Assembly: GCA_033439255.1 (NCBI GenBank)
Contig: CM065880.1
Span: forward strand, 3,410,001-3,474,000
Direction of reading: 5' to 3'
Source: Hericium rajendrae
Taxonomy: Eukaryota; Basidiomycota; Agaricomycetes; Russulales; Hericiaceae
Length of the DNA stretch: 64,000 nucleotides
The notes beneath the pieces are model-generated. The model was not told the origin of the DNA and did no database searches. It was given only the letters and a program-made list of their open reading frames with translations. Shown here piece by piece: positions 3,426-40,473 of the stretch (position 1 is its first letter; each line of letters starts with the position of its first letter). The translations under genes were made by a program, and so were the position numbers.

Positions 3426-3429
3426 GTGT

Positions 3430-5755: not shown

Positions 5756-5822
5756 TCAAGTCTGACCAAAAATGCAGACAATCCGAAAACTTCCATAACT
5801 GGCACAATCTAAATTTGGGTTA

Positions 5823-12110: not shown

Positions 12111-12111
12111 T

Positions 12112-13022: not shown

Positions 13023-13383
13023 GAGCATCGGTGGGTAGTGAACGACATTTTCTGTCAAATTGACGCAGCCCTCGTATTCCCGATTCGCCTCTCTTCTGTT
13101 CGTCGCCAGTGCAGCCATCTGGGTTGCCGATTCGCAGCACAGGTTCTAGGTAGAGTTTGATGGAGGAGTGGTGCGGGTATGTATCTGTACTGTTCTGGAC
13201 GTCTGTCGACGCTGCTGCTGCACGGGCGTGTGAGGTCTAGTCCTGCTAAAGGTTCTTTGCAGCACCATCACATCCCGTATCCTGTGCGCCTGTCATAGAC
13301 CATCCCTCGGGATCCGTGATGCTGATATACAAGTTATTCCAGGATGCGTAGCTATTCAAGCAGTCCTCTATAATAACTGCGAC

Positions 13384-16087: not shown

Positions 16088-16934
16088 ATGAGGGTACTAC
16101 ACGATGCTGATGCGGAAGCTATTCAAGGATATGGGGCTGTTCAAATGCTCCTCTATATGAACTGCAAAATGAGTGTTTGTTCGACTCTCGCGCCGTCTCC
16201 CCTAATCCCGATGTGCGGTGAACAAAACTACGTTGTAAGTTCTGCTTCATTCGTTGCATCCTAACTCGGCTGACTGCTTGTATTATTATCAGAGTCGTCT
16301 GGCAGCCCTTTGGGTGAGTGTCTGTCTTCAACTTCGTTCACAGCCCTCTCACTAATCACCTAATGGAACTAGTTCGAGACTGTCTTCTGGGGTCGGCACA
16401 ACCATCTCTGAAGCCGTCTTCATCACTAACCTGCCATTGCAAGGTCTCTACGTGACTATATTCCTGAGATGCGTCTATATTTTGGTGCAGCGACACGACA
16501 AGCCGCGATTCCTCCTTCCAATCAGCATAATTATGTTCCTCGTCTGCTCTGCGCTCGTCGTCATTGACTTTGTCGTGGTGCTACTTAACCGAGATGTGGT
16601 GTCAAGCTCCTTCTGGAGCCCATTCAGTACTAATTCCTATATGAGCATGGCGAGTCAGCTTGACACCGTCGCATCCTAGATTGCGGAGCTCACTTGGCCA
16701 ACATTTGAGTGTAACCATAGTAGTATGCATAGAATCAATATATATTTTCCATGTCTCCTTGCGCAGGAATCCCGGCCCAGGGTCCTCATTGCTGCAGTTA
16801 ATTACCATAAAGCATTGATTGGCCAAGTACATGTCAATTCTGCAATGATATATGGCTGGGTCCAATGTACTTTATGCTGGGGAATGTATTCATGTCAGCA
16901 TGTGTAGGTAAGCTGCAGTGTAGTGTGTTGCAGC

Positions 16935-17800
16935 ATGCTGCTATGGGTTGGCCAAAGTATATGCACATATCCCGTGGCATGCCGCTATGGGTTGGCCAAG
17001 GTATATGTGCATATTCCGCGGCATGCCGCTATGGGTTGGCCAAGGTATATGTGCATATTCCAAGGCATGCTGCTATGGGTTGGCCAAGGTATATGCACAT
17101 ATTTTGTAGCATGCCGCTATGGGTTGGCCAAGGTATATGCACATATCCCGTGGCATGCTGCTATGGGTTGGCCCAGGTATATGTGCATATTCCACGACAT
17201 GCCGCTATGGGTTGGCCAAGGTATATGCACATATCCCGCGGCATGCCGCTATGGGTTGGCCAAGGTATATGCACATATCCCGAGGCATGCCGCTATGGGT
17301 TGGCCAAGGTATATGTGCATATTCCGAGGCATGCCGCTATGGGTTGGCCAAGATATATGTGCATATTCCGAGGCATGCCGCTATGGGTTGGCCAAGGTAT
17401 ATGTGCATATTCTACGGCATGCTGCTATGGGTTGGCCAAGGTATATGTGCATATTCCGCGGCATGCTGCTATGGGTTGGCCAAGGTATATGCACATATTT
17501 CGCGGCATGCTGCAATGGGTTGGCCAAGGTATATGTGCATATTCCGCAACATGCCGCTATGGGTTGGCCAAGGTATATGTGCATATTCTGTGACATGCCG
17601 CTATGGGTTGGCCAAGGTATATGTGCATATTCTGTGACATGCCGCTATGGGTTGGCCAAGGTATATGTGCATATTCTGCAACATGCCGCTATGGGTTGGC
17701 CAAGGTATATGTGCATATTTCGTGGCATGCCGCTATGGGTTGGCCAAAGTATATGCACATATTCTGTGGCATGCTACTATGGGTTGGCCAAACCACAATT
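16935..17800 (+). repeat. 44-bp minisatellite, E1 left arm (~19-20 units)
   Basis: The unit contains GGCATGCCGCTATGGGTTGG, then CCAAGGTATATG, a TG or CA pair, and CATAT. Each unit holds three palindromes: GGCATGCC, TTGGCCAA and an ATATGNNCATAT motif that would be self-complementary if NN were CG. Differences between units are almost all C/T or G/A. Confidence 0.9.
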
Positions 17801-18059
17801 CTGCAATCCCCTGCATGTTGCTATGAGTTGGCCAATGTATAGGTGGCATGCTGCTATGGGTTGGCCAAGCTGTAATGCCATAGCTCTGTCATGTGGCTAT
17901 GGGTTGGCCAATCTCAATGTAAGTGACTATCACCATATTTGCATGGTTGGCCAACATCTCATACCATTTGACCATTTGATGATGTTATGGGTTGGCTGAT
18001 CTCAATGTTAGTTCTCTATCATATCCTCCAGCACATGTACCATATCCTGCAGCACATTT

Positions 18060-18780
18060 ACCATATTCCATGGTATTCTATGATATTCTGAGGCATTCTA
18101 TGATATCCTGCAACATGCTATAATATCCTGCAGCACATGTATTATATCCTATGGTATCCAATGATATTTCCAGGTATTCTATAATATTTTAGGACATGTC
18201 ATACTATTCCAAGATATGCTATCATATCTCAAGGCATGCTATGGTATTCCAAGGCATGCTATCATATCCCGAGGCATTCTATAATATCCCGAGGCATGCT
18301 ATCATATCCTGAGGCATGCTATGGTATTCCACGGCATGCTATCATATCCTGAGGCATGCTATGGTATTCCACAGCATGCTATCATATCCCGAGGCATGCT
18401 ATGGTATTCCACGGCATGCTATCATATCCCGAGGCATGCTATGGTATTCCACGGCATGCTATCATATCCCGAGACATTCTATAATATCTTGCAGCAATGT
18501 ATTATATTCCATGGTATTCTATGGTATCCTGAGACATGCTATCATATCCCCAGGCATGCTATGGTATTTCACAGCATGTTATCATATCCTGAGGCATTCT
18601 ATCATATCTCCAGGCACTCTACAATATCCCGAGGTATGCTATCATATCCCGAGGCATTCTATCATATCCTGAGGTATGCTATCATATCTCGAGACATGCT
18701 ATGGTATCCCACAGCATGCTATAATGTCTCATGGTGTGCTATCATATCCTGCAGAATGTGATCATATTTTACGATGTGCT
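18060..18780 (+). repeat. 20-bp satellite, E1 left arm
   Basis: Units of about 20 bp such as AGGCATGCTATCATATCCCG alternate with variants having GGTATTCC and ACGGCATGC. The array is about 720 bp long and ends in degraded copies at both sides. Confidence 0.85.
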
Positions 18781-18928
18781 AATTGAATTCTGACACATAG
18801 TTATTATATCATGTCACGTGCTCATTATATTATTTGACACAATATTGAGATAGTCAAACATTATCAATCATTTAGGCTCAATGTATAGTACATCTGATTA
18901 TGGAAACTTATCGTAGCTCGGGTAGATC

Positions 18929-18983
18929 CAGTGGTGTTACAATTTCAGATTTCGGTGATTGCCGAGCCATGACAGAGACTAAT
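18929..18983 (-). other. E1 central core shared with E2
   Basis: On the minus strand this reads ATTAGTCTCTG..., then GCTCGGCAATCACCGA, AATCTGAA and ATTGTAACACCACTG. The same order of blocks lies in the centre of E2 (39515-39571). It is the only sequence I found common to both elements. The block contains CGG-N6-CCG. Confidence 0.75.
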
Positions 18984-19239
18984 TTGGCAGACTTCACTAA
19001 TTTACATTTGCTTGTTTGTACTCTATGATAGATTAATTACATTTCCATTATAGTTCACAGTGTTATATGAATTGAAAGTATGTGTCATTCTTTTTTCTAA
19101 TTTTATATTATTTGATTCGATTTGTTGAAGCCAAAACATTGAGGATTGGGACATAGGTGTTGTGACTGAATGACGAATGACACATCACTGGTGTTTGATT
19201 GCCACTAGTGATTACCATTCATCATGAGATGTCATGACA

Positions 19240-20830
19240 TGCAGCAAGATATTATAAATATGCTATGGGATACTATAACATGCTTTGGAATATGATAGTA
19301 TGCTGTACAATATCATACATGTGCTGGAAGAGATTACAGTATGCTGCAAGATATTGTAACATGTTGTGTAATATGAGACATGTGCTGCAGAATATTATAG
19401 CATGCCATAGGATATGATACATGTGCTGCAGGATATTATAGCATGCTATGAGATACTATAGCATGCCATGGGATACCATAGCATGCCTCGGGATATGATA
19501 GCATGCCTCGAGATATGATTGCACACCTCGGGATGTTATAGAATGCCTTGAAATATCATAGAATGCCTTGGGATACCATAGAATACTGTGGAATATGATA
19601 CATTGCTGCAAGATATTATAGCATGCCATAGGATACCATAGCATGTCTCAGGATATGATAGCATACCCTCAGGATATGATAGAATGCCTCAGGATATTAT
19701 AAAATGCCTCAGGATATGATAGCATACCTCGAGATATTGTAGAGTGCCTGGAGATATGATAGAATGCCTCAGGATATGATAGCATGCCGTGGAATACCAT
19801 AGCATGCCTCGGGATATGATAGCATGCCGTGAAATACCATAGCATGCCTCAGGATATGAAAGCATGCCTTGGGATATGATAGCATGCTGTGAGATACCAT
19901 AGCATGCCTCGGGATATGATAGCATGCAGTGGGATATGATAGCATGCCTCAGGATATCATAGCATGCCTCGGGATATTATAGAATGCCTCGGGATATGAT
20001 AGCATGCCTTGGGATACCATAGAATACCATGGAATATGATACATTGCTGCAAGATATTATAGAATGTCTCAGGATATGATAGCATACCTCGGGATATTGT
20101 AGAGCACCTGAGGATATGATAGAATGCCTCGGGATATGATAGCATGTTGTGGAATATCATAGCATGCCTTGAGATATGATAGCATGTCTCGGGATATAAT
20201 AGCATGCTGTGAGATACCATAGCATGCCTCAGGATATGATAGCATGCCGCAGGATATGATAGCATGTCGTGGGATACCATAGCATGCCTCAGGATATGAT
20301 AGCATGCCTCGGGATATTATAGAATGCCTCAGAATATGATAGCATGCCTTGGGATACCATAGAATACCATGGAATATGATACATTGCTGCAAGATATTAT
20401 AGAATGTCTCGGGATATGATAGCATGCCGTGGAATACCATAGCATGCCTCGGGATATGATAGCATGCCGTGGAATACCATAGCATGCCTCGGGATATGAT
20501 AGCATGCCGTGGAATACCATAGCATGCCTCAGGATATGATAGCATGCCTCGGGATATTATAGAATGCCTCGGGATATGATAGCATGCCGTGGAATACCAT
20601 AGCATGCCTTGAGATATGATAGCATGTCTTGGAATAGTATGACATGTCCTAAAATATTATAGAATACCTGGAAATATCATTGGATACCATAGGATATAAT
20701 ACATGTGCTGCAGGATATTATAGCATGTTGCAGGATATCATAGAATGCCTCAGAATATCATAGAATACCATGGAATATGGTAAATGTGCTGCAGGATATG
20801 GTACATGTGCTGGAGGATATGATAGAGAAC
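19240..20830 (-). repeat. 20-bp satellite, E1 right arm (expanded)
   Basis: The same 20-bp units as in the left arm occur in inverse orientation, but the array is about 1590 bp, more than twice the left arm. Larger repeated blocks of about 240-260 bp are visible inside it (for example the segments starting near 19960 and 20280), a sign of expansion by unequal exchange or replication slippage. Confidence 0.85.
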
Positions 20831-21056
20831 TAACATTGAGATCAGCCAACCCATAACATCATCAAATGGTCAAATGGTATGAGATGTTGGCCAACCATGC
20901 AAATATGGTGATAGTCACTTACATTGAGATTGGCCAACCCATAGCCACATGACAGAGCTATGGCATTACAGCTTGGCCAACCCATAGCAGCATGCCACCT
21001 ATACATTGGCCAACTCATAGCAACATGCAGGGGATTGCAGAATTGTGGTTTGGCCA

Positions 21057-21820
21057 ACCCATAGTAGCATGCCACAGAATATGTGCATATACTTTGGCCA
21101 ACCCATAGCGGCATGCCACGAAATATGCACATATACCTTGGCCAACCCATAGCAGCATGCCACAGAATATGTGCATATATCTTGGCCAACCCATCGCAGC
21201 ATGCCGCGAAATATGTGCATATACCTTGGCCAACCCATAGCAGCATGCCGCGGAATATGTGCATATACCTTGGCCAACCCATAGCAGCATGCCGCAGAAT
21301 ATGTACATATACCTTGGCCAACCCATAGCAGCATGCCGTGGAATATGTGCATATACCTTGGCCAACCCATAGCAGCATGCCGCAGAATATGCACATATAC
21401 CTTGGCCAACCCATAGCAGCATGCCGTGGAATATGCACATATACCTTGGCCAACCCATAGCGGCATGTCGTGGAATATGCACATATACCTTGGCCAACCC
21501 ATAGCAGCATGCCTTGGAATATGCACATATATCTTGGCCAACCCATAGCGGCATGCCGTGGAATATGCACATATACCTTGGCCAACCCATAGCGGCATGC
21601 CTCGGAATATGCACATATACCTTGGCCAACCCATAGCGGCATGCCGCGGAATATGCACATATACCTTGGCCAACCCATAGCGGCATGCCTCGGAATATGC
21701 ACATATATCTTGGCCAACCCATAGCGGCATGCCGTGGAATATGCACATATACCTTGGCCAACCCATAGCGGCATGCCACGGGATATGTGCATATACTTTG
21801 GCCAACCCATAGCAGCATGC
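21057..21820 (-). repeat. 44-bp minisatellite, E1 right arm (~17 units)
   Basis: The array is the inverse of that at 16935-17800 with two to three fewer units. The TG and CA variants of the central 12-mer are distributed differently along the two arms, so units have been gained and lost since the arms formed. Confidence 0.88.
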
Positions 21821-22888
21821 TGCAACACACTACACTGCAGCTTACCTACACATGCTGACATGAATACATTCCCCAGCATAAAGTACATTGGACCCAGCCA
21901 TATATCATTGCAGAATTGACATGTACTTGGCCAATCAATGCTTTATGGTAATTAACTGCAGCAATGAGGACCCTGGGCCGGGATTCCTGCGCAAGAAGAC
22001 ATGGAAAATATATATTGATTCTATGCATACTACTATGGTTACACTCAATTGTTGGCCAAGTGAGCTCCGCAATCTAGGATGCGACGGTGTCAAGCTGACT
22101 CGCCATGCTCATATGGAATTATGGTACTGAATCATGTGCCTTCTGTGCAGGGCTGGCTTGCATGTCGTGTGTCACGGAGACCCAGAGCTACTTGAACGAG
22201 GTCCTCCTTGAAGACTTAACATGGCCCATCCAGCAGGCCTTGCTTGCAACGAATTTGTATGTCATGTTTTGCCCATCTGATTTGGACGCCCTGATGCCGT
22301 AATTGTTAGATTCCTTACCGATGGCTTGTTGGTATGTTCAAACACCTCTTTACAAAGGAGACATCGAGTCAAACGCAGGCCAGATCTACCGCTGTTTCAG
22401 ACTGTGGAAAGGAATGAGATGGGAGAAATGGGAGCTGAGGTGGGTCGTATTCCTGCCCATCATGCTCCTTCTCGCGAGCTCCGGTTCGTACAGTCCTCAC
22501 CAACCGGCGAAGCAGACACTGATAGTATCCGCCAGCCATCAGTTATGCTGCAGTCCACAGTGGTGTCCAGATGTGGCGTATCCGCCGCAGTGTTCCATTG
22601 TCGGTCGCTACGCCGCCCTCGGATTGGTTCTCCGTCATCGCGATGTATAACAATCTCTCCATCGCAGCATTCGTTCTTTCCCTCGCCACGACAGTTCTAA
22701 CTACTCTCCTCATTGGTAAGCATTTCGCCTGCGCTTCGTCGAGACGGGAGTCATGTTCTCATTCTACAGCATTATCTATCTGGTTTTCTATGCGCGAGCT
22801 AGAGAAGGGGCTTGGGCGGAGAGTAGGATCGATGTACCGGAGGTCGATGACTCTTGTGTTCGTGCACGCTCCTGCGGGTCCTGACTTA

Positions 22889-23244
22889 CAGCCATTTGCA
22901 TAAAGGATGGCAGCAGCGCGCGTTTTTTCGATGAAAGAGGAAATGGGTGGCTGGCCCTGTGGCGGCATGTTTTGGCGCATAGAATTCTCAATTATATCAC
23001 TTTTCCGTAGCAATTCAGCTTGCTGGCATCATTCACTGATGAGAGTACTATAGACAGTATCATAATGTAGAAGTCAGAGGGTATTTATGTATGCAAAAAT
23101 GTAAGGACAAGAGCAATATCGGAGTCGACTGAGGACAGTGACGGCAGTGTGACGGCGCCAAAACACGCGACCACAGGGCCAGCCACACCTTTCCTCTTTC
23201 ATCGAAAAACCGCGAGTTACTGCCATGCTCTATGCAAATGGCTG
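22889..23244. mobile_element. 356-bp MITE in an intron of paralog B
   Basis: The ends are inverted repeats of about 95 bp starting CAGCCATTTGCATA, with arms matching through TTTTTCGATGAAAGAGGAAA and GGCTGGCCCTGTGG. TA lies at both flanks (22887-22888 and 23245-23246), consistent with Tc1/mariner-type insertion. It is absent from the corresponding intron of paralog A. It lies between a GT and the acceptor before ESGAMYS, so it may be tolerated as intron sequence. Confidence 0.7.
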
Positions 23245-23837
23245 TAATCTCACTCGAATTCCCTCCTGAAATAGGATAGAATCCGGAGCAATGTACTCCG
23301 TCTCGTTGATCGTCATGGTGGCAGTCTCGTTCACCGCCACCGCCCCTCTGTACGAGGTGAGTGCAGTGTGCCCCTGCACTTTCAGCTAGTCTCCGAACTG
23401 AAGACGGTCAACGCCCTCCAGGCGATCCCGGAGTACGCTATGCGACAGGTCATGGTACGTACCGGATCACCCCAATTCTCTCTCCTCATTCATGGACCAT
23501 GGCTTCTCAGGGGATTGCTCCTACACTCATTATCGTCCGCCTTGGACTCGGCGAGGGCATCGAATCCACCATACAGGAGTTGTCCGCGAGTCGCATGTCG
23601 GAAGTGCTACCGCCGACGTCGCGCGACATCACATTTGCACGGGTCGAGGACGACGTCGAGTCATACCACGAACCGTGCTCGATCCGAGCCAAGCCATCGA
23701 GCAATAAGATGGCGGACCGGCCAAAGAGCAGTGTTGAGGTCACCATCTCCCGTCGTATGTCCGGATCGCCGCCCGTGGAGGGCGCGAAGTTGGAGGGGTT
23801 TAATATTTGCAAGCACTGGGATTCTGGATCTGAGTGA

Positions 23838-25297
23838 CCTTGCAAGTGAGCCGTTCTCGCTAGCTGCTCAATCGAACTCACTTTCGTCCCAGAAATACTG
23901 GAGATCCAGATCCGGACGTCGCGCTATTTAGATGCCTTCCGTCAAAGTTAGGTCCCTTTCGACCTTCGCATTAATGCCTTTTTCTGTCAGATTACACATA
24001 ACGGTAGTGTCTCCGCCGGGCTTGGTGACATTGCGATAGCTATTTATACTAAATTATGGAGATGTATTGTCACCCGACTCTAGATATCCGTTCTATGCTT
24101 CACACCCTTCTCGTTGCTCTCCTTGGTGCTGCATACCAGGGAGTCTCCTCCCGCAGCCGTCCATTTATCGATCATCAGCGGTCGAAACTCGTAGCATACT
24201 TAGAAGTACAATTGCACGCTTAATCAAGATTGGCCTGACGATAGCTGATGAAATCGTCTTCGAGATCTTCGCAACCCAACGAGAGATGGGTGTTTGACAG
24301 TCCTATAGCTTGCTGTCACTCAATGTTCCGCTGTGTCTTCTCGTCGACGTCATGGGTGCCCCGCCACTTGTCCCGACACAACATAAAGAGGGCAGCATTG
24401 GGCAACTCGATTTTATCACCCCCGAGACCCACCATGTAAGTATGCGTCTGTATGCGTATGCTCTAGTTTCTTGATCGGGTTGTTGCGGCCAAAATGGTTC
24501 CGCCGAAGAGCACGACCATTGTCAACAATGGTCACAATAGGAACTCCAACTAAATTCGTCTGCGACAGTCAATACGTCAGCGCTTCAACGCTCAGAAATT
24601 GTACGCCGACTGGTCATGTTGGTCGCTTACCTGATATAAGGTATGGCCGTTCCACCTTCAGCTCCGTGGTTCTTCCAGGGTCTTGAGATTAGTATATCAA
24701 AGCGCTATGTACCGGTGTGTCCATTGCTCCTACTGAGTCACGATATCGGAAGCGTTGACTCTCGTTGACTTCGGTGCAGTCCATCGAGGATCCGAGGAGT
24801 TCGAGGCGCACAGTGACACGCCTCGTCGTAGAGGCTAGAGCCTTATGGCTGAAGGAACCCGCAAAAGCGCTCGACGCATCGACGCATCAAACGTTCGTCG
24901 CGTTGGAAGTCGGCAGTCTCGCAAAGCCGTAGATGGTTCTAGATTTGTGCAACTTATCAGCGACGGAAGCACTTACAAGAAATCAAGTGGGGTGCAGAAG
25001 ACAACACTGGGACAACACGGAATGAGTCTGCTGCAAATCGAACATGATGACAGAACAAGCAATGGAGTCATTTCGCTTCGCAACCGGCGGCAGAAGGCCT
25101 CGAGCTGACGTGTGGAGAACATACTGATACTCGATATGGACTCTAGCGCTCTGACCGATCGCGGTCTCTGCGGTCCGCGCTGTTCCCCCCACGCAAACAT
25201 GTCTAATGAAAATGGCGAACGGCCGTAGGGCATTGCGGCAGCCCGTCCATCTTCCCTACCTTCCGCGCTTCCCGTATCCCCTCCAGCGAGTGGCCCC
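23838..25297. other. 1.4-kb region without a certain gene
   Basis: Pieces look coding: a possible signal-peptide-like start MLHTLLVALLGAAYQGVSS near 24094, and LDFITPETHH followed by a GTAAGT donor near 24433. I could not join them into a convincing gene and recognise no family. They may be a decayed third member of the local duplications. Confidence 0.3.
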
Positions 25298-27206
25298 ATG
25301 GCCGGCGAAAAAACACTGTCGAGGACGCCGTCGAGCACCAAGACGCTCCCAATGGCAGCGAACGCCGTGGCTGATGCTGCGGGGTCGGAGAAAACTAGGG
25401 CGCCTCAACGGTGGAAAGATTTTGGGTTTCTGCCTATTCCCAAACGGCTGCGCTATGACCCAGACAAGCCAGTTGCATTTGGAACGGTGATGAACGCATC
25501 GTTTGGCTTTGGGAGTACATTCAGTGCGTGCTGTCTTGCTTTCAAAGTATGGGAGGATTGTTGACACATGTCTGTGTGCAGTTGTTGCCAACCTTTATTA
25601 TTGCCAACCGTTGCTCAGTGAGTTTCCCCTCTGTTTCAATATTGGTGTTTGTCCTGACCTGCACCATAGTCCAACTTGCCGAGTCTTTCGGAGTAAGCTA
25701 CAGCGAGGTGTCAAAGTAGGTCTGCTCCCCGTCTGCCGTCGCATCGAAAGTCTGATCTTCGTGCTTTTGTCCAGTATTCCAACGTTAATACAGGGAGGGT
25801 GAGCGTCGAACGTCATCTACTCTCCGTTTTGAGGGCGAATACCAAGCATCTCCCAATTTAGATATGCCGCCGGCCTGCTGCTGATCAGCCCGATGGGAGA
25901 TCTAGTGCCAAGGCGGCCTTTGCTGCTCGTCCTCTCCTTCGTCGCAGCAAGCCTGACCATCGGCCTCGCACTCACAAACTCCCTCGTCGCATTCGAGGTC
26001 CTCTCCTTCCTCGTCGGCACCTTCAGCGTCTCGCCGCAGATCCTCATCCCGCTCGCCGCGGACCTCGCGCCGCCCGAACGCCGCGCAACCGCGATCTCCA
26101 TCGTGCTCTCGGGCCTGCTCCTCGGCGTGCTCATCGCGCGGGTGGTCGCGGGCATCATCGCAGAGTTCGTGACGTGGCGCGTCGTGTATTACATGGCGAT
26201 CGGGACGCAGTATTTCGTGCTGTTCCTGCTGTGGGCGATGCTGCCGGACTACCCCGCGAAAAACACCGGGCTGAACTACTTCGACATTCTGTACACGATG
26301 GCGAAGCTTGCGTTCACGGAGCCCGAGCTGATCCAGGCGTGTCTGATCACGATCGCGTCGAGCGCGTGCTTCACGAATTTTTGGGTGACGCTGACGTTCC
26401 TCCTCGGCGGCCCGCTGTACAACTACTCCACGTGAGTCGCGTCTTGACACCAACCATACTCGAACTCACATGCCGCAGGCTGGCCATCGGGCTGTTTGGG
26501 CTGATCGGCATGGGCGGCGTGTGCATGGCCCCGCTGCTCGGCCGCATCGTCGACCGCCTCGTGCCGTGGTACGCGACGCTCTTCTCGACGGTCATGCTCC
26601 TCGGCACGCAGGCGATCTACACCGGCGCGGCGGGCGTGAACGTCTCCGCGGTCGTCATCACCACGGTCGGCATCGACATCTTCCGGCAGATGCAGCAGAC
26701 GTCGCTCACGACGTCTGTCATGTCGTAAGTCTGCTTTTCTGTGGCTTTCGCGGCGTCTGACGCGAAGTTCCTGGCAGGATCGACGAGTCGGCGCGCTCGC
26801 GGATCAATGCTGTGATTATCCTCTCGGTACGTCTTGTCATTTTCTCCCGTGCCTATGTGCGCCCTCATGATGTCTGCAGTTCTTCATCGGCACGGTGATG
26901 GGCACGCCCGTCGGCACGCGCGTCTTCGTCGAGCACGGCTGGCGCGCGTCCGGCGCGCTCGCGCTCGCGTGGACGGCGTGGCAGCTCGGCATCCTGCTGA
27001 TCCGCGGGCCTCATGTGCGGCGCTACACATGGCTCGGTTGGGAGGGCGGGATGGAGTGGCGCAAGGAGGCCGCGAAGGCGTGCCAGCAGGAGCAGAAGCC
27101 GCTGGAGGACGAGGGTGTTGTTGAGGAGGAACAGGATGAGAAGAAGGGTGGGGAGGTGAGCGATGCGCCGGTGGAGGAAAAAAAGGATGCGGCGAGGATG
27201 GTGTAA
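25298..27206 (+). CDS. MFS transporter, copy 1 (507 aa)
   Basis: Eight exons: 25298-25523, 25582-25617, 25670-25715, 25775-25798, 25862-26431, 26479-26724, 26778-26826 and 26880-27206, with introns of 47-63 bp. The total is 508 codons in phase. Membrane segments are obvious (YAAGLLLISPMGDLVPRR; RPLLLVLSFVAASLTIGLAL; LAIGLFGLIGMGGVCMAPLL; SFFIGTVMG). The G-D-x-x-x-R-R type loop after helix 2 (GDLVPRRP) and DLAPPERRATAIS after helix 4 mark a major facilitator of the DHA1-like drug/metabolite proton antiporter type. The N-terminal and C-terminal tails are cytosolic and charged. The substrate cannot be told. The neighbouring gene is a tandem copy with nearly the same intron positions. Confidence 0.88.
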
Positions 27207-27574
27207 ATCGTTTTCATTTTGTTGCGTTGGAGGTGGAGGTCCTTTGCGTTGTCACGACTTTACGACTCATAGACGGTACTTTAATCCTGGGATACGTTCC
27301 ATTATACCTTAGATCGCTTTACCCGGGTTTTAGGCTTACAAGTGTATTCTGCAGGTTTCTTTCAGGGAGAGTGAGATTTCAGAATCGAGCGCCGTCGCGT
27401 CGCGCCAATTAAGCGCGGTCACGTGTACATGTTTTGCATGATCGGCGCCAACGGCAGACGCCCACCTCGGACTTGTCGCTTGACCGCTCGATAACAAAAA
27501 TAACATGTCGACCGTCAGAAGACCTCCCGCGGGCGTGATGTGGGTACCCGCCGCACACTTTGTTTCTGCCCATC
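27207..27574. other. spacer between the two MFS genes
   Basis: This is the 3' flank of copy 1 and the 5' flank of copy 2, 368 bp. It has no gene and no clear TATA box close to the second start. Confidence 0.4.
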
Positions 27575-29682: not shown

Positions 29683-29985
29683 TACTGCCCTGTGATTGGT
29701 CATAGACTCACGCATATTCTCTTCATGACAATGACTGACGTTTCATGACGAGAATTTTACCTGCTTTAGATTTGTGGATCCAAAGGCCTGTCTCAGGCCG
29801 CGCTCGCGTTCTCTCTGGATGTTCACCAACCGAGAGGCACCATGCCCTTTCACAGTCCAATTTTGCATGACATTCAATGCCGGCTCCCGTGCTCGAGTTC
29901 GTAGGTTATTTCTGAGGCTTGTACTCACTTCGAAGTGGCTTCAAGAACGTCGAATGATCGTGGACAGAATACGTTGCAGTTATAT

Positions 29986-31455
29986 CTACTCGTTTTCCCC
30001 GCCATGGCTGCCATCTTCAGTTCCTTCCTCCTCGTCCTCCTCGTCCTCCTCCTCGTCATCTTTCTTGATACGTTGCCTCTCCTCGAAGCTCGGGACGCGC
30101 GTAATCAAACAGACTTCCGCGTAGAAGATCTGATGCTCTGCCTGATTTCCGTACTCGATGTACGTGCCCCTAAAGGCAGTAAACTGCGTGAGAGGTGTCA
30201 CCCAGCTCACCGGTACGACCGGCTCCTTCTGTTGTTCTGACTCTGAGCTCGAGAACGAGGACGAACTTTCCCGCTTGATAACGATAGTAGGCCCATCTTC
30301 TTTGATTCTTGAAATTATGCTCTGCTCGTCTATATTTGTTTCCTCTTCGATAATGTCTGGGATGTTGAAGAACAAGACTGTCTCCAGCTCATACCAGTCC
30401 TTATAACAAAAGTACAGCTCAGGCTCCATGGACAGCTTTTCAATGACGCGCCAGATAACAGCATCGCTGCCTTTCAGCAGCTTGTGGACGTCCTCCAAGC
30501 TCCATCGGATCGGGTACTTGTGTCGAAGACCGAACCCGAGAAGACCGCCGTCAGGTAAGAACGTCGGATCGCTGAGCATCCCTTTCAGCGTCTCATTGAA
30601 AGTCGGCTCGTTCGGGACGATGGTGGATACCAGCTCAGCGTCAACCTTGGCATCCTCGTCCTTCACGGCGATGTCCTCAAAATAGAGGTTGTACGTGAGG
30701 GTGACACGGTGGCCGGAACGGACGAGCGAGACCTCGTGCTCGACGTCGCTGTAAAACGCTATGAATCCGATAGAGCAGGCAGGCAGCTGGCCGAATTCCT
30801 TTGCTAAGTCGACGGTCCATTCTTTACCTCCGTGGCGAAGAATCAGGCCGCCGCCTTCGTGCTGGGTGGGAAATACGAGGACGAGGGATCCGAACATAGC
30901 CCCACTGCGTGGAGTGTCCACATGGGGCTTGAAGAACGATCCCTCGCCTTAAGGCAGCTTATCAGATCAAGACTCTACAAATTCCCTGAAGAACACTCAC
31001 TGTACACGTTTAACTTGTACAATTCGAGCCGGATCGGACGTGCAGAGTGATTGCCCTCCAAGAGTTCGTTGCGGATAGCTTGCATCAGCGGAGTACGCTC
31101 AGGAACAATAGGGTTGGAGAACTGGTCGATGTCCATCTTTCCAGCTCTGCGATACGACTCGTCGAGGACGTCTTCTTTGTTCCTGCCGAAAGTGGCGGCC
31201 TCGCAAGCGGCAGCCAGCTCGGCGAGCTCCGCTTCCATCGCAGTTGTGAAATTGAGATAGCTGGAACAGAGGCGTCAGAGACAATCACCTCCACATACGA
31301 GAATGAGGCAAGTCTTACTTGGAACCATTGCTGGTCTTGTAAAACAGATTGAAGCAATCGAGCGGAAGAGACAGAGTACCGCTGACATACGGCGGTTTGT
31401 CGATGATAGCGTCGGTGAGTGGCTGCAAAACCTCGCTGCTGACAGTCTGGGACAT
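29986..31455 (-). CDS. 2OG-Fe(II) oxygenase-like protein, copy 2 (452 aa)
   Basis: Three exons: 31455-31319, 31260-31001 and 30947-29986, with introns of 58 and 53 bp, giving 453 codons in phase. The N-terminal motif is DKPPYVSGTLSLP, followed by CEAATFGRNKEDVLDESYRRA. Metal and co-substrate residues are present: His141 and Asp143 in FFKPHVDTPRS, His203 in YSDVEHEV and Arg213 in SGHRVTLTYN. This is the HxD..H..R set of P4H-like Fe(II)/2-oxoglutarate dioxygenases, so it is probably catalytically competent. The substrate is unknown. The C-terminus is a Glu/Asp run. It is divergent from copy 3 across 727 bp. Confidence 0.85.
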
Positions 31456-32182
31456 GTTGTTGAAGAGATGTTTTGTGCAGAGGTTGCCGGTGCGTTATAT
31501 ACCAACTGGTGGTCCCTGGGAGACACTGCATGTGTATTCCCTGTACGATGACTCGCATGAAGTTTGTTGCGCTGGATAGAAGGCTCTCAGCAGGTGTCAA
31601 TACGTCCATCGCATTTTCACTGAACATGCGCTTGATATCTTGACTATAATGAGTGGAGCTTCCGACAAATAAGTGAAGCGGAGGTTCTGCCTTCTGTTTC
31701 TGAAACTGTACGGGGGCAGTAAGTATTCGTCGCCTCACCGGAGTCAAGAGAAGCAGAAAATTCATTAATCTCGCAAGAATACAAGCCCGGAAGAAGGCGC
31801 GCCGCATACATGATCTTTTCATGTCCAAGGTCCGGTACACTACCCTGAGTGAATGACTCGGGTGGGCCTGGGTATCGAGAAAGAAGTCAAGGCGGAATCT
31901 ATGACGTTGCACCATGGCTGGTCGAAGACATGACGTACATACGAGGCATCGTGGACATGTACATGAACATGATGATCGATTACTGCCTCGTTTATGACTG
32001 GAAGCCGTGTTTGAACGTAAGGCGAATGGGAATTTGATGCAGAAGACTGTTCAATTGAATGCACGAGTCACTAGTCACCACATTGATTGACATCGAGTGG
32101 ACGGCGTGTACACCAAGGCCTGTGCAATCAGTATAAAGAAAGACACGGAAATTCGACAGAGAGCATAACGCACTAGATTGCC
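31456..32182. promoter_or_regulatory. divergent promoter region of oxygenase copies 2 and 3
   Basis: The two genes face away from each other. TATATAA lies at 31495-31501 on the minus strand, about 40 bp before the copy 2 ATG. TATAAAG lies at 32132-32138, about 45-50 bp before the copy 3 ATG. No other gene is seen. Confidence 0.5.
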
Positions 32183-33151
32183 ATGTCTGAAACTGTAGCC
32201 CAGGATACTCTCAAGCCCCTTCACGACTCCATCGTCAACAGGCCACCGTATGTGAGCGGCATATTGCCTATGTCCCCCGACCACCTTAGGCTGTACTACG
32301 ATGGCCTCGAATCTGCATGGTAAGCTGATTATCGAGCGTACCTTATGGACCTATACATTTTGCTCATCGAGTTGTTCATCCTAGCGCAATTGACTTCACG
32401 AAGGTCACTGATATGCAGTTAGCCGCGCTCGCCAGAGCATGTCAGCCTGCAACATTTGGCCTTGATCAAAAGGATGTCTTCGACGAATCGTACAGGAAGG
32501 CTGGAAAAATGGACGTTACTCACTTCTCTACGTCCATTGTCCCAGAGAGGACTGATCTGCCCACTATCATCCGCAATGACTTGCTGGACGGAGAGGACTC
32601 GACGCGGCCCATCCGATTCGAACTTTACAAACTGAACGTCTACGGTGAGTACATGAAGACATATACTTACCGGGGGTTCGCTGCTAATATGGAGTTAGGC
32701 AAAGACTCGTTCTTCAGGCCGCACATTGACACACCTCGCAGTGAGACCATGTTCGGCTCCCTGGTCCTCGTCTTCCCCACGGAGCATGAAGGCGGCGCCC
32801 TGGTCCTCCGCCACCGAGGCGAAGAGTGGACATTCGACTCTGCCCAGGCCGTCAAAAACCAAGCCACGCCCTCCATCGGATACGTAGCGTTCTTCAGCGA
32901 CGTCGAGCACGAAGTGGCCGTCGTGCAGGCCGGGTATCGCGTCACATTGACATTCAACCTCTATTACGATGACGTTGGGACTGTTGAGATCCCTCCGACC
33001 ACCATGGCGAATCTCACCTCGATCAAGACGGAGATGGAGACCCTGCTTCGCGACCCTACCTTCCTTCCCTCTGGGGGCCTGCTTGGATTTGGCCTTCAGC
33101 ACGTGTACCCCATAAAAAAGACGCTCGACCACGTCCACAAGGTGCTGAAGG

Positions 33152-34096
33152 TAGTCTGCTTTCTGATGTGGGTTTCTTAACGGGACCCCCCCTTATCAGA
33201 CGGGGTTTGAATTGAATGAGGGGGCGGAGCTCAAATCAGGAGAGAAATTAAGTTATCAATTAAGCTTAACTTACTGGCCCACCGCGCCGCACAACGGGCC
33301 CAGGCGGCCCCATCGTCTTTGCAGCAGCCAAAGGTGAGCACGTCGTACCAGGACATGCAGAGATAAATACTGGAGAGGAGCAATGCCTGGGTGCAAAATA
33401 AAAACGTAAACGATGCCCAATCCACAGCCAGGGCAAGGTGGGCGACGCCGGGATTCGAACCAAAAATGTCGAGAGCTCAATGCATCCCAGATAGCCCGCT
33501 GAGCTATAATGCCGATACTACTAACCCTCATGTATAATTTAAGACGTGTTGGCGCCCTCCGGGAGGCTGCGGAGTGGGTTGGGTCGCTCAAGTGAGTATC
33601 GAAATCCTTATGGTTGCCTCTTCCAGCCGTTTACAAATTGATAGGCCTTCCCGAGCAAAATGGTGTAAATATCGTTTTTGAGTCGGCGAAGGTCGGAAAA
33701 CCGCTTACGACTCTGCGGCATCCGCGCCAGTCCTGTCTGCCATGCTGCCGTGCTGCCGTTGCCACCGGCTGTGAGTAGAATCAAGTTCCACCTTGTATGT
33801 TGAACGTCCGACCGATGCATCCACTTCTGCCACAGAGGCCTATCGATTTGTAAACGGCTGTCATGGCCCTGTGCAAAGCTCTTGTCAAGTATCCAGAGGA
33901 AGATGCATCAATTGTGGAATTATGGCACAATGCACTATATTATGTGATGTGCCGACTCTCGGCGAGAAGCTTAGCGGTGGCTGATGGTGGCTGAGGCGAC
34001 CCCCCATTAAGGCAGGGGATATAGAAAGCAGACGTCAGACAGATGATCCTGAGGCACGAAGCGTTGAGTCCTGTCTACTCTGCCTCTGGGAGACTA
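33152..34096. mobile_element. 945-bp non-autonomous element with 8-bp TSD, inside oxygenase copy 3
   Basis: It is flanked by GCTGAAGG (33144-33151 and 34097-34104), an 8-bp duplication as made by hAT-type transposases. The ends are TAGTCT..AGACTA, a 6-bp inverted repeat. Inside are a tRNA-like segment (33441-33513, minus strand) and a 25-bp inverted repeat (33624-33648 and 33836-33860, CAGCCGTTTACAAAT..). The left junction reads AAG|GTAGTC and the right junction GACTAG|CTGAAG, so the insert begins with GT and ends with AG when the duplicated bases are counted. No protein is encoded. Confidence 0.65.
33441..33513 (-). repeat. tRNA-derived segment (SINE head or decayed tRNA)
   Basis: A perfect B box (GGTTCGAATCC) and a good A box (TAGCTCAGCGGG) are spaced as in a tRNA. 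The acceptor, D and anticodon stems do not pair well, so it is not a working tRNA. It is probably the Pol III promoter head of a SINE carried inside the 945-bp element. Confidence 0.5.
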
Positions 34097-34290
34097 GCTG
34101 AAGGGCAGTGACGCGATGGTCTGGCGTGTCTGTAGCGAGCTGTCGGCAACACCGAAGATATACCTCGTCTATGGTAAGGCTCCAACCATTTACTTTATGT
34201 GTACAGAAATTTTGTAAAAAAATGGTATATGGAAATAAAGGGTAAATACACAGTAAATAAATGGTATAAACGGATCCCAGAATACATGGA

Positions 34291-37200
34291 TTACTTGAGT
34301 TTGAGTAGGCCAGCTTGAATCCATGCCTTGGTGCACATTAGCTCTGTGATTGTCAAGGCCTTGAGCGACGAGCGCGTGTCAGCACATATGTGGCGAGATC
34401 TCGAAAAAGCCCACTCTACGGAAACTGATGTTCCCGGGATAGCGAGAAAATCCCGAGCAATACGAGCAATAACGGGGAATTCACGAGCATGGTCCTTAGC
34501 AGCAGACACGTCAGGAGATCAAATTAATCACAGAACACGAAGAAGTCTTACCTTCCACCACTTCAAGGGAAGATATAAGTCACCAGAGCCCCCTTCATTT
34601 TCCGACCAGCGTTCAAGCTCGCTACGTCGTGGGGTAGGATTGTTGGCGGTGGGCTTGCTCTTCTTGGCGACGAGTGTAAGGAAATCCGATGATTCATCAG
34701 CGGGCGCAGCCTGTGGTACGTCTTCGGGTTCGGGTTCACTTGCTTTATACTCGTTGTAGACGTGCTCGAAGAGTGCCCATGCCTTCGTGCGTCGGTCATC
34801 GCTGAGCTCATCGAATCAGTCGATGCGGAGGCTGGGATGACATACTACAGGGATAAATATGACGGCCGAATGAGTACAGTCTACACCAAAAAAAATGAAT
34901 GAGTACGTACTTGTGGCGATGACCGCATACTGGCATTCCGAAGCCAAATTGTAGTAATGTAACAGCTTTTCCAAGCCCGCAGCTATAGCCTCGCGTAGAG
35001 CAAGCGGGAGGGAATTGTTCTTGATCTGCTTATCGAGGTATTTGCGCATGTACTCATACATCGGCAGGACCCAGGGTAGCGTGGGTGTCCTAGCCTTTGA
35101 CATGGTAGCAGTAACCTTGGTGAAAATCTACCGACTCGCAGGACGAGAAGTGAGGACACAAATTGACAAAACAATGATACACAGCGCACCTCGAGCAGAT
35201 CCCTGAGTTGCTTCAGTGACACCCAGTCACCCAGCGAGAGATAAAGATCTTGCAGTTCGTCCCGGTCGAGAACCCACGCGTTAATTGCCTGAAGCGTTGC
35301 GCATGCATTCGCCGGTCAGCGATCTTTTCGAACCGTGAGTGGATCCATCAACGCACCTTTTTAAGCTGCAATGCTCTGACAATCATAGCGTGTGTATAGT
35401 TCCACCGTGTCTTCACGTCACGGATGGGCATCAGCTTGCTGATGTCAGTGCCCTTCTCGGTTTTCTCATCTGCATAGTACTTGTGAGCGAGAGTACGGAA
35501 CGCTGCGCGGCGCTGAGGAGAGCTGATTATCTTTTTGCAGATAGCGCGGAGCTGCCATTTTTGGTCAGTAAACGGACATTACAGCGGGCACCCACAGGCG
35601 TAAACAAGGTGACAGTCGCACCTTTTGCACCGGACTCATACCACTGGGAACACCCACGTCCTCATCGTCCTCGATGGCCTCATTGTCATCTCCTTCCTCT
35701 GGATCATTGCGAACCCTTTCCGCATCATCTTCAATAGCTCTGTCTGTCTCGTACGACTGAACATCCTCATCACCTTCAACATCATAGTGAAAAGGTAAGT
35801 GCTTGTTGAGCTTGATGTAGTAGTCTTCAACTTCAGGATCGTCTACTTCCTGAAGTGTGCTCATTATCTTTTGCACGACTAGGTTCACCACATGCGCAAG
35901 ACAACGGATCTGACCGTTCTCTGGGCGGAAGTGAACACCGTAACACTTTTCCAGCAGAGTACCCAAGACCCGTGCCATGACATCGTTTGTCGCGGCATTG
36001 TCCATCGTGAGGGCTAGAAAGTAATGAGTGATACGGTAAGTACTCCCTTCAGAGGGTTAAATACAGGAAGACTTATCTTGTCCAGGCTACCCCTTTTCGA
36101 GGCCGATTGAAGGAAGGCTTTCGCCGATCCGACTCCTTCATGCTCATGGTCACCCAAGTGACGGAAGTCGATCAGGCGCTCGATAAGTTGCCATTCATCA
36201 TCGATCCAGTTCGCTATAGTACCGGAGAATGAGAAGATCATACGGGGTGTCATCCATGTATCATTTGAGTATGCAATTCGGGACTTAACGGCCTTGAAAT
36301 ATGGTAAGTGCATGTATTAGAATGATATTATGACTCAGGTCAAGCTTACTGCTAATCCTTTCACAACTTCTGCGTGCAGGTCTGCGCAGATCTGCGCAAC
36401 AACATTTCGGACAGTTGTGTCGCTCGGCAACACATACCGTGCCTCCATGTACTTGAAGAGCAAGGCGAGCGAAGGCGCCTCGCCCGTTGTAAATGGTAAG
36501 TCTTCCTCAATAAGCCATGCTGCGAACAGGTGCAAGAATCCCTTCTGCGTCGGGTTCTGGCATGGATTCAACTTGCCTTCTGCAAGAAAGCCTTCCATCA
36601 AGCGGACACTTGCCGAAGATAGGCCATTGTTCGGGATCGCTGGTGAGCTCATTTTGTTCTCTTCCTTCTCAGCGAGTTCTTTAATCAGCGCGCCGTGAGC
36701 CTTTTTCGTATGTGTTGATAGGTTGCCGACTGCAGGGCGAGGCGATGGTTCATCATCGAAGTTGCTGGTATCAATGGTGCGTTGCACTGTTCGTGTGCTG
36801 CGAGATATGAAGGTGAGCTCGGCTTCATTTTGGAAGAGCAAAATCACGTACTTATCACAGTACTTACACTTGAAGCACCATCTCTTGCCGACCTTTGGCT
36901 CAATAGTCCGTATCGGCTTATGCCAGTGAGCCAAGGTCGTATTTTCAGGCCCTCGCCGACCACTTTTTCGCTGCTGCTCGGCCTCACGAGCTTCAACATC
37001 CCGTAGCGCCGATTGCCCATCAGATTCAGTGTCGTCATCTCCTTCTGAGTCACTAGTACCAGCGCCGTCAGCGGCAGATGACTTGTCAACACTGCGAGAA
37101 GATCGGCGGCACATTGTTTGTGTCCGGCGTGCTCTACAGTATGTTCAGCTTGCTAGTCTCCATCAGAATCAAGAATCTCACCTTTTAGCCCGCTTTCCGA

Positions 37201-38210
37201 CTTTCTTCTTCAGCTGAGGAGCTCGTCTTTTGCGAGCTGTATGAGCAGGAGTCTCCTCCACTTCAGCCTCGAGTGGTTCATCATCACTGAAGTCGACCGC
37301 AGCGCGCCGGTTGCGCTTTGCCTTGACATGCAGGTCAGTTCAAAGATACTTCTGCTTTGTTTATTACTCACCGGCTGAATGGCTCCATCGGTAGAGTTCA
37401 TTTTAATGAACTCAACTTCGTCATCTCCGATTTCGGAAGGTGACAGAGATGTATCGCTATCATGATCAGCCCTCGTCTCCTTCCAGGTCTTGTCTTTGCG
37501 AGAGTCACCGGGTAGTTCTGGTACTGTGATGCGAGGTAAGCAATGGATCTTGGACTTAATAGGATAGCGGGTTGCTTACTGTCCTTGCTGTGGAGGTACT
37601 CATCAAGGCGCCCGCTGCCTATTCCTTTCATGACCTGTCGCTTTAGATCGGCGGGTGTCACTTCCTTGGTGGATGCCCTGCTACGACTCGTTTGCGTAGG
37701 CTTGCCAGACTGTCCCTTAGCGATGTCGTCATCAATCCCGCCAGGCTGCATGACCGCAGGCTCGCTACTAGGGCTTGGCCCCATGGATGGTGCCTTACTA
37801 TCGTACGAAAATGCAGTGAGTTCAGTTGTTCCCTTTGCAAACAAGATTACCCACCAAAGATATTCAACTTCGTCTAGTAGCCGCTTGACTTTAATCATCA
37901 TCGGAGCCTCGAACTCCTCCATTGCAGGCTCGCCAATGATCCTCTCAAGGTAATTGCATACCATTATAATCCCGTAACGGCCGTGTCGAAGGAGAGGTAA
38001 GCGGCCATTTGCATCCCGACAGTCCTCACTAAAGAGAAGATTAAAGCAACGGTCAAATGTCGCCCATAGGCTTTCTCCATCGACCGTTGTCATGACATGG
38101 TGGATCCGATCGGTCTTCGTTGCCTCAGGAACACTGGCAGGAAGCTTCTTGGACAGCTCAGATATTCTCTGGACTGTGAAGCGGAGTTCATCGACAAGTT
38201 GGGAGCTCAT
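34291..38210 (-). CDS. hAT transposase with BED finger, one nonsense codon
   Basis: Exons traced in phase: 38210-37580, 37523-37372, 37321-37182, 37133-36852, 36797-36350, 36292-36073, 36013-35622, 35551-35357, 35288-35190 and 35127-34911, then two more ending at 34291. An N-terminal ~270-residue host-like region precedes a BED-type finger (CKYC..LSTHTKKAH). Catalytic-core landmarks follow: AYSNDTWMTPRMIF (first Asp), TMDNAATND (second Asp) and IRCLAHVVNLVVQK (C/DxxH motif). The end is the hAT dimerisation domain (FPVIARIARDFLAIPGTSV; EWAFSRSRH). A TGA at 34816-34818 replaces the expected Trp in RIDWFDEL, a G-to-A change that would remove the dimerisation domain. One donor (GTCTTC, at 36072) is weak. 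It moves the hAT element by cut-and-paste when whole. Confidence 0.85.
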
Positions 38211-38211
38211 T

Positions 38212-40466
38212 CACACAATACAGTGACTTTGGCCGCAACCTATGGGCCAGACAAAAGTGGCCTAAGGCCATAAGTTACGGGCTGGTCAAACCCAGCTGGA
38301 ATGAGGATTTTTGGTCCGTAAGCTACGGGCCAGCTGGATCTGGGAATAGACCATAAGTTACGGGTCAGCTTATATAGATGTGTACCATAGGTTACAGTGG
38401 AGCTGGCAGGGGGTATCTCTTGGGTGCCGGACTAATGGAATTAAATCAGAACTGGACTACTTTTTCTAGCTTCGGACTGCTTTTTTAGGGCTCGGACTAG
38501 TGGTTGAAAATTGAACTGGATTACATAAGATAACACAGGACTACGGACTATAGAAGATTATGGAATAGGACTATCAGACAGGACTTCGGACTTGTATTGA
38601 ATAAGACTTTGGACTATTCCACAGGACTTTGGACTACTCTATAGGACTTTGGACTACTCTATAGGACTTCGGACTACTCCATAGGACTTCGAACTACTCC
38701 ATAGAACTTCGGACTACTTAATAAAACTTCGGACTACTTAATAGGACTTCGGACTACTTAATAAAACTTCGGACTCTGAACTAGACTAAGGACTCTGGAC
38801 TCTGGACTTCAGATTGAGAACTTCGGATTAAGGATTACAAAATAGGACTATAGACAACAGACTTCGGACTAGGACTTAAAACTCCGGAACATGACTCCGG
38901 ACTCTAGACTACTACAGATCAAAGACTTCGGACTCCAGACTCCGGACTTTGGACCTCGGACCTCAGACTATAGCCTTCGAACTTCAGACTGAACCATAAA
39001 ATAGGCATCAGGACTAATCTAATGATAAAATCAAATTAAGGACTACAAAATAAAACAAAGGACTATAAAATAGAACTAAGAACTACAAAGACAGATTTAG
39101 AATCAGAAAATTAGCCTAAGGACTATAAGATCTATGATCAGACTATGGACTATAAGATAGAACTAAGAACTATAAATATATATTCTAAAATTATTCAACA
39201 GACTAATTTGTATATAAAAAAGGCTACTTGAGTTTTGAATTAAATTATTATAGGACGAAGAAAAAGAGCAGGACAAAACAATAGTAGCTAGTAACAATCA
39301 AACTTTCAAGTTGACGCGTCTTTAGTTGTACAGCCACAAGACCCATATCTAGATTCTCGGTATTTGAGTCAGATCAAATCAAATCAAATACTATAAAATT
39401 AGCAAAAATAACAGCATATACTTTCAACTCATATAATATTATAAAATGCAACAGATTTATATTTAAGATACTATAGTATATGAGATGGCAGATATAAGTT
39501 AGTAAAGTCTAAAAATTAGCCTCTGATGTAGTGCTCGGCAATCACCGACATCTAATATTGTAACTCCGCTGAGTATAGTCACTGTGTTGCAGCTATATCA
39601 CATCAAATGGATTACTGTGCCACTACTTTAAACAAGCTCTCAAGAATGCTAGCTTATAATTCTTAGTTTCATTCTATTATTTAGACTTTAGTCTGAAGTC
39701 TCAAGGCTATAGTCCGAGGTCCGAGGTCCGAAGTCTGGAGTCTGGAGTCCGAAGTCTTTGATCTGTAGTAGTCTAGAGTCCGGAGTCATGTTCCGGAGTT
39801 TTAAGTCCTAGTCCGAAGTCTGTTGTCTATAGTCCTATTTTGTAATCCTTAATCCGAAGTTCTCAATCTGAAGTCCAGAGTCCAGAGTCCTTAGTCTAGT
39901 TCAGAGTCCGAAGTTTTATTAAGTAGTCCGAAGTCCTATTAAGTAGTCCGAAGTTTTATTAAGTAGTCCGAAGTTCTATGGAGTAGTTCGAAGTCCTATG
40001 GAGTAGTCCGAAGTCCTATAGAGTAGTCCAAAGTCCTATAGAGTAGTCCAAAGTCCTGTGATAGTCCAAAGTCTTATTCAATACAAGTCCGAAGTCCTGT
40101 CTGATAGTCCTATTCCATAATCTTCTATAGTCCGTAGTCCTGTGTTATCTTATGTAATCCAGTTCAATTTTCAACCACTAGTCCGAGCCCTAAAAAAGCA
40201 GTCCGAAGCTAGAAAAAGTAGTCCGGTTCTGATTTAATTCCATTAGTCCGGCACCCAAGAGATACCCCCTGCCAGCTCCACTGTAACCTATGGTACACAT
40301 CTATATAAGCTGACCCGTAACTTATGGTCTATTCCCAGATCCAGCTGGCCCGTAGCTTACGGACCAAAAATCCTCATTCCAGCTGGGTTTGACCAGCCCG
40401 TAACTTATGGCCTTAGGCCACTTTTGTCTGGCCCGTAGGTTGCGGCCAAAGTCACACCATTGACTG
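38212..40466. mobile_element. E2: 2.25-kb foldback element nested in the hAT transposon
   Basis: The arms (about 38222-38995 and 39684-40455) are near-identical inverted repeats starting GTGACTTTGGCCGCAACC. The outer ~160 bp has repeats of CATAAGTTACGGGC and CCGTAAGCTACGGGCC. The inner arm is a ~20-bp satellite (GGACTTCGGACTACTCCATA). GCTCATT (38205-38211 and 40467-40473) flanks the element as a likely 7-bp target duplication. The unpaired ~690-bp centre is AT-rich and holds the core shared with E1. One of the few arm differences is a C/T at a CpG. No protein is encoded. It separates the hAT transposase start from its upstream sequence. Confidence 0.78.
39515..39571 (+). other. E2 central core shared with E1
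   Basis: The blocks ATTAGCCTCTG, GCTCGGCAATCACCGA, ATCTAAT and ATTGTAACTCCGCTG occur in the same order and spacing (within 1-3 bp) as in the E1 core, in opposite orientation relative to the window. The surrounding centre sequences of the two elements are otherwise unlike. Confidence 0.75.
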
Positions 40467-40473
40467 GCTCATT

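Follow-up and report, generated by a model that had tools for sequence, protein, structure and literature searches.

Two foldback elements of Hericium rajendrae share a homologous centre under seemingly unrelated arms and are probably members of one non-autonomous transposon lineage

The window analysed here is a stretch of 64,000 nucleotides from the basidiomycete Hericium rajendrae (assembly GCA_033439255.1, contig CM065880.1, positions 3,410,001 to 3,474,000 of the forward strand; coordinates below are counted from its first base). It harbors two foldback elements, E1 and E2, whose loops contain a homologous block of about 280-290 bp underneath arms between which no homology was detected. 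The best explanation, with a probability of roughly 0.57, is that both elements belong to one lineage of non-autonomous foldback DNA transposons, in which the arms have been rebuilt while the centre and the tips persisted. The proposed family is described from these two copies, both located in this single 64-kb window.

Borders and insertion of E1 and E2

The elements, their target-site duplications (TSDs) and the empty site of E1 are located as follows.

16616-22138: foldback element E1, 5523 bp (inverted arms, TSD, empty paralogous site)
38212-40466: foldback element E2, 2255 bp (inverted arms, TSD)
16609-16615, plus strand: left TSD of E1, 7 bp, with an exact copy at the right border
22139-22145, plus strand: right TSD of E1, 7 bp, copy of 16609-16615
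38205-38211, plus strand: left TSD of E2, 7 bp
40467-40473, plus strand: right TSD of E2, 7 bp
13638-14092, plus strand: paralogous empty site for E1, gapless at the junction against the joined E1 flanks

By their structure, E1 and E2 are foldback transposons, i.e., their inverted repeats are very long and contain tandem repeats. In E1, the two longest inverted matches without gaps span 1750 nt at 90% and 1065 nt at 94%; those of E2 span 402 nt at 99% and 381 nt at 97%. Both are flanked by exact 7-bp TSDs, CCTTCTG for E1 and GCTCATT for E2. These were found by scanning for direct repeats at an equal offset of 0-25 from both ends of the inverted match, which revealed one 7-bp repeat per element; among random position pairs with the same separations, 45/20000 and 70/20000 had a repeat of this length or longer at one or more of the 26 offsets. 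An earlier note, made from the sequence alone, had placed the borders at these positions and described 7-bp flanking repeats and minisatellite arms. The inverted matches and the TSDs confirm the borders, the flanking repeats are exact in both elements and tandem arrays are present in the arms of both.

A self-comparison of the window revealed that E1 interrupts a segment with a nearby paralog: 13201-13802 resembles 15988-16577, 13860-14553 resembles 22165-22871 and 14578-15213 resembles 23249-23904. Here, the E1 flanks were joined, one copy of the 7-bp repeat was removed and the product was aligned to the paralog; in the alignment row with the junction 34/60 columns are identical. Since the paralog has diverged, this demonstrates the missing insertion, not the exact seven target bases. 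The paralogous segment split by E1 also contains an inverted repeat resembling a miniature inverted-repeat transposable element (22886-23247), in which 82/93 columns are complementary and 176 nt lie between the arms.

For E2, the self-comparison yielded no paralogous empty site within the window. When the E2 flanks are joined, the frame of the minus-strand open reading frame (ORF) 37398-38210 continues without a stop for another 33 codons upstream of its ATG, which is located in the duplication; this lends weak support to an insertion. This ATG, lying within 38205-38211, starts the ORF, and a further ATG is present 28 codons upstream in the joined flanks. The insertion point of E2 may thus belong to the first exon or the 5' leader of a gene. 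Taken together, the 7-bp duplications of both elements and the empty site of E1 indicate that both arrived by insertion.

A homologous block in the loops

18929-19208, minus strand: homologous loop block, E1 copy (BLAST, local alignment), containing the earlier core at 18929-18983
39288-39571, plus strand: homologous loop block, E2 copy (BLAST, local alignment), containing the earlier core at 39515-39571

The earlier note had reported a common loop sequence of about 55 bp, including a stretch of 16 of 16 identical bases, underneath unrelated arms. The common sequence, the coordinates of this core and the identical stretch all hold. The length has to be revised, as the loop alignment extends over about 280-290 bp. 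BLAST aligns the two blocks with 70.4% identity over 287 columns, and within these borders 202/277 ungapped positions are identical, corresponding to a Kimura two-parameter (K2P) distance of 0.35. A local alignment of E1 18929-19219 with E2 39280-39571 contains 208/298 identical columns. The block alignment scores 225. Dinucleotide shuffles (n=500) average 39.9 (sd 6.1) and reach 73 at most, the opposite strand gives 39, and none of 21 other AT-rich slices taken from the window scores above 42. Furthermore, a profile built from both blocks finds only the E1 and E2 copies in the window, the next match having an E-value of 1.4.

Other origins of the block were considered as well. A coding origin was rejected, since the longest stop-to-stop frame has 53 codons and the mismatches are distributed over the three phases as 30/21/24 without a clear bias; Pfam gave no match at E up to 1 in the 10 of 12 read-through loop frames that were scanned. 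A structural RNA was likewise rejected: at gathering thresholds Rfam identified one tRNA in the window, outside the elements, and no match in E1, and E2 had none at E up to 1. Four patterns gave 0 matches in a viral contig collection. The sole pattern match in genome contigs, a collection that is not fungal, came from a metagenome-assembled genome of Bryobacterales from a bog. The similarity is confined to the pattern and about 0.5 such matches are expected by estimate, so that it is attributed to chance.

Architecture of the arms

The arms are composed of the following segments, for which arrays were identified with Tandem Repeats Finder (TRF) and autocorrelation.

16616-16932, plus strand: E1 left outer arm, no tandem repeats (308/313 columns identical to the right arm)
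16933-17791, plus strand: E1 left 44-bp minisatellite, 19.5 copies (TRF; autocorrelation 0.907 at 44)
17792-18062, plus strand: E1 left intermediate segment, no tandem repeats (270/270 aligned columns identical to the right arm)
18063-18722, plus strand: E1 left 20/40-bp minisatellite, 33 copies (TRF, autocorrelation)
18768-19225: E1 loop, centre without arrays
19226-20636, plus strand: E1 right 20-bp minisatellite, about 60 copies (TRF row 19431-20636; unpaired inward extension below about 20074)
21050-21820, plus strand: E1 right 44-bp minisatellite, 17.5 copies (TRF)
21821-22138, minus strand: E1 right outer arm (alignment with the left arm)
38212-39002, plus strand: E2 left arm, consisting of an outer part and a 20-bp minisatellite at 38601-38775 (768/785 columns identical to the right arm; TRF)
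39003-39287, plus strand: E2 one-sided stretch with weak 20-bp periodicity between left arm and block (autocorrelation 0.464 at 20; TRF 39027-39089)
39680-40466, minus strand: E2 right arm, with a minisatellite at 39905-40078 (inverted match, TRF, left-arm alignment)

Within each element, the arms are 98-100% identical outside the E1 arrays, and 13 of the 17 differing columns of the E2 arms lie at the outermost or innermost end. The arms within an element are thus far more alike than the loops between the elements, which argues that they were made alike after the two lineages had split. The array copy numbers are unequal between the E1 arms (19.5 vs. 17.5 for the 44-bp and 33 vs. 60 for the 20-bp unit). 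When the longest pairing without gaps is considered, E1 remains unpaired over 18768-20073, because the right array reaches further inward.

The 44-mer of E1 resembles the outer arm of this element at 16814-16877 and the E1 20-mer is related to the 44-mer; in neither comparison was any of 2000 shuffles as good. This suggests that the E1 arrays have grown out of the element's own arm. The E2 20-mer matches the E2 outer arm at 38564-38590 (0/2000 shuffles).

Arms with 20-bp periodicity are common to both elements, and each contains a 20-bp periodic stretch on one side only, which lies upstream when the block is read in its own orientation. No homology of E1 arms with E2 arms is present among the BLAST matches listed, which comprise 56 of the 58 minus-strand matches, namely those spanning 100 bp or more, together with 24 plus-strand matches more than 600 bp apart. 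Sixteen local alignments of E1 arms with E2 arms gave no convincing homology either; the lowest value, 3/200 shuffles, was not accepted as real, since shuffles lose the periodicity of the arms. For the two 20-mers, at best 100/2000 shuffles were as good.

Related tips

The statement of the earlier note that E1 and E2 have no arm sequence in common agrees with these comparisons and fails at the outermost bases. Read inward from the target duplication, E1-right and E2-left are identical at 10/13 positions (CACAnnATnCAGT). In 20000 trials, the best of the four cross pairs reached such a match with P 0.0005 for 13 bases, and P(sum) over the cross pairs is 0.00005; at 16 bases the identity is 11/16 (0.125% of trials). 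Furthermore, CA begins three of the four element ends. The likeness of the tips provides moderate evidence that one transposase handles both E1 and E2.

The 55-bp core and its proposed function

The pattern GCTCGGCAATCACCGANATCT, allowing up to 3 mismatches, has two matches in the window, both exact, at a mean of 0.00 in 100 shuffles. In the earlier note the core was regarded as the functional part of the elements, and this claim finds no support here. It is quite improbable that the core or the block is under selection as a cis-acting site, be it for nicking, for replication start or for a zinc-cluster factor. The identical run of 16 bases and the identity of the core compared to the rest of the block (47/59 vs. 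161/239 columns) would fit to such a site, as would the observation that TCGG-N6-CCGA occurs nowhere in the window but in the two cores. However, the excess in identity is not significant (Fisher P 0.08), and in column permutations (n=5000) an identical run of at least 16 appeared in 22% (P 0.22), and 8.7% contained an equally good window of 55 columns (P 0.087), for a core that had been picked for its identity after the fact. The zinc-cluster factor site was rejected as the motif counts are not above expectation, 2 vs. 0.96 in mononucleotide shuffles for TCGG-N6-CCGA and 15 vs. 16.9 for CGG-N6-CCG. A hairpin at the core was rejected too, the folding of all four strands being ordinary (z -0.45 to -1.02). 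The loop is single-copy while the arms appear to be homogenised and re-amplified; the loop would therefore outlast the arms without any need for a function.

A lineage with persisting centre and rebuilt arms

The term candidate new family, used in the earlier note, remains plausible, as TSD length, tips and block point to one family; the functional core that was part of this description does not. For the lineage proposed here, an unseen cut-and-paste transposase would move E1 and E2 in trans, thereby generating the 7-bp target duplications. It would recognise the related tips, which are probably what the transposase needs. Hairpin repair or gene conversion, probably around the time of transposition, would homogenise the arms, and the palindromes, being corrected against themselves, would stay alike. 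Subsequently, the arms may be re-amplified as minisatellites of about 20 bp and 44 bp, in E1 visibly from its own outer arm, and might become long through expansion of internal tandem units, as described for Galileo and Tetris (see below). After a long divergence, to which the K2P distance of the loop attests, nothing but the tips and the single-copy centre would still be recognisable. The centre would mainly be a passenger, which is old because it is single-copy.

Several observations weigh against this reading. Only two copies are present, and Pfam revealed no transposase in the 39 scanned ORFs among the 104 ORFs of at least 120 aa in the window; we therefore infer mobilisation in trans and leave the superfamily unassigned. 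The whole E1 arms including the arrays are only about 90% alike over 1751 columns. The site in the E2 outer arm that matches the 20-mer directly adjoins the array and may be its decayed edge, so that it proves nothing. For the tips, the comparison lengths were selected after looking, at 20 bases the identity is 12/20 with P(max) up to 0.00345, E1-left starts with G and not with C, and a comparison of both ends within an element gives only 1/6 identical outermost bp in E1 and 6/11 in E2. Finally, no similarity above shuffles was observed past either edge of the block (25 vs. a mean of 26.2; 32 vs. 35.9), and a looser alignment continues past the core, but only through matches as weak as those of shuffles. 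Edges this sharp are no less expected if a module was exchanged or captured than if the similarity decayed slowly.

The sharp edges speak for a centre exchange, in which E1 and E2 would descend from two arm subfamilies that gained the same centre long ago through recombination or conversion between elements, similar to chimeric copies of Galileo. A precedent exists, since one central region is described under the terminal inverted repeats (TIRs) of the Galileo subfamilies D, E, and X (PMC3573991). The divergence of the centre implies that any such exchange is old. Nevertheless, the related tips favour one lineage, the arms became alike within each element at a later time and arm turnover alone explains the pattern, which renders an exchange somewhat unlikely. 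The edges would equally be expected if a fragment of an unrelated repeat had been inserted independently into two different foldback elements, and copies of the block are known from this window alone. This capture is improbable, as E1 and E2 share the TSD length, the likeness of the tips and the 20-bp periodic arms, the block is placed alike relative to the one-sided periodic stretch in both, and no third copy of the block is found in the 64 kb.

A stricter version of the proposed lineage defines the element by its centre: only a module of about 280 bp and a few terminal bases would be inherited, and the palindromic arms would be regenerated de novo around it. For example, hairpin-primed repair would copy one arm into the other and then amplify short units. 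This version is clearly unlikely. The highly complementary arms of about 0.8-2 kb would also be compatible with long hairpin RNA loci that are sources of small RNAs and not mobile DNA, and one paper reportedly deals with hairpin small RNAs in fungi. Against this very remote explanation stand the 7-bp duplications in both elements and the empty site of E1, which speak for insertion, as well as the lack of Rfam matches at the thresholds given above. A secondary role of E1 and E2 as a source of small RNAs is possible.

Comparison with known systems

Among known systems, Galileo from Drosophila, a foldback-like member of the P superfamily, is described with mostly 7-bp TSDs and long, internally repetitive TIRs that are expandable by tandem repeats, and some copies consist of two TIRs without a transposase (PMC4168063, PMC3573991). 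The same central region is reported under the TIRs of three subfamilies, and the TIR ends of the copies with this centre are 77% identical (PMC3573991). E1 and E2 resemble Galileo in the TSD length, the long tandem-repeat arms and the shared centre under different arms. In contrast, the reported target preference of Galileo is GTATTAC (GTANTAC) compared to CCTTCTG and GCTCATT here, the arms of E1 and E2 cannot be aligned to each other, unlike the reported Galileo TIR ends, the host is a fungus instead of Drosophila, and no transposase was seen in E1 and E2. A P-type THAP transposase was found neither in the 10 of 12 loop frames nor in the 39 of 104 window ORFs that were scanned.

Tetris from Drosophila virilis is a foldback element for which its authors suggest the Mutator superfamily; its TIRs are described as flanking, tandem-repeat and inner domains around a middle without apparent coding capacity, with the flanking domain as a possible source of the tandem unit (PMC4079207). 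This is similar to E1, where the 44-mer is related to the outer arm. On the contrary, the reported duplications of 8-10 bp and units of about 220 bp differ from the 7 bp and the 20/44-bp units found here. Tm1, a Mutator/Foldback element of the root-knot nematode Meloidogyne, is reported to have TIRs with 13-15 bp tandem repeats, asymmetric 7-bp motifs at the outermost ends that are conserved over many copies, and mostly 9-bp duplications (PMC3169594). According to this description, E1, and to a lesser extent E2, are comparable in that the outermost bases differ between the ends, whereas the duplication length and the copy number, two here, set them apart. The Mutator-type duplication of 8-10 bp is not seen in E1 and E2, both having 7 bp. 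The duplications of Mutator-like elements (MULEs) vary more in general, and thus a MULE is still possible.

CA..TG ends are typical of hAT elements. A hAT transposase was absent from the scanned loop frames (10 of 12) and from the 39 of 104 window ORFs. The fungal hAT7 transposons of Puccinia and Melampsora are described with 7-bp TSDs, the feature they share with E1 and E2, but are defined by their transposase, which clusters with fungal and plant hAT, and the excerpted account does not mention foldback arms (PMC12730594). No described foldback family in fungi was found in the open-access literature searched, as judged by titles and the openings of abstracts.

Other features of the window

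A third, unrelated foldback-like element is present at 44578-47928. Its arms (44578-45917/46543-47882 and 45910-46213/46246-46549) are reported as 100% complementary with 32 nt between them, and it is bordered by a flush 8-bp flanking repeat, AAGCTACG. The 49-bp end sequence at 47880-47928 recurs in the middle of the element (46200-46248). A very recent origin or an effect of the assembly may account for the perfect arms. Further candidates with terminal inverted repeats lie at 2582-3748 and 5821-6332, with repeats of 24 bp (96%) and 27 bp (100%), respectively.

The genes recognisable by Pfam in the 39 of 104 ORFs encode a coproporphyrinogen III oxidase, NopRA1 and 2OG-Fe(II) oxygenases. Diverged paralogs are located at 30000-33200, 48500-54200, and 62300-63800. 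Matches to 2OG-FeII_Oxy_3 occur in four ORFs (29986-30948, 32329-33180, 62473-63813, and, just under the cut-off, 48512-49426). A direct tandem duplication of 4.2 kb with 82% identity (47943-52125 and 52219-56427) has NopRA1 matches in both copies (47943-56427). Downstream of the coproporphyrinogen III oxidase ORF and a tRNA, a 156-bp unit is repeated twice in tandem with 98% matches (11807-12117).

Significance

Should copies elsewhere in the genome bear out the proposed lineage, a practical rule would follow: repeat libraries based on arms would split one such family into many, and families of this kind should therefore be searched by centre and tips. If the centre-defined version were true, one lineage would yield foldback elements with entirely different arms. 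If copies throughout the genome confirm the lineage proposed here, these elements would offer a clean measure of the rate at which palindromic arms are rebuilt in comparison to a single-copy centre.

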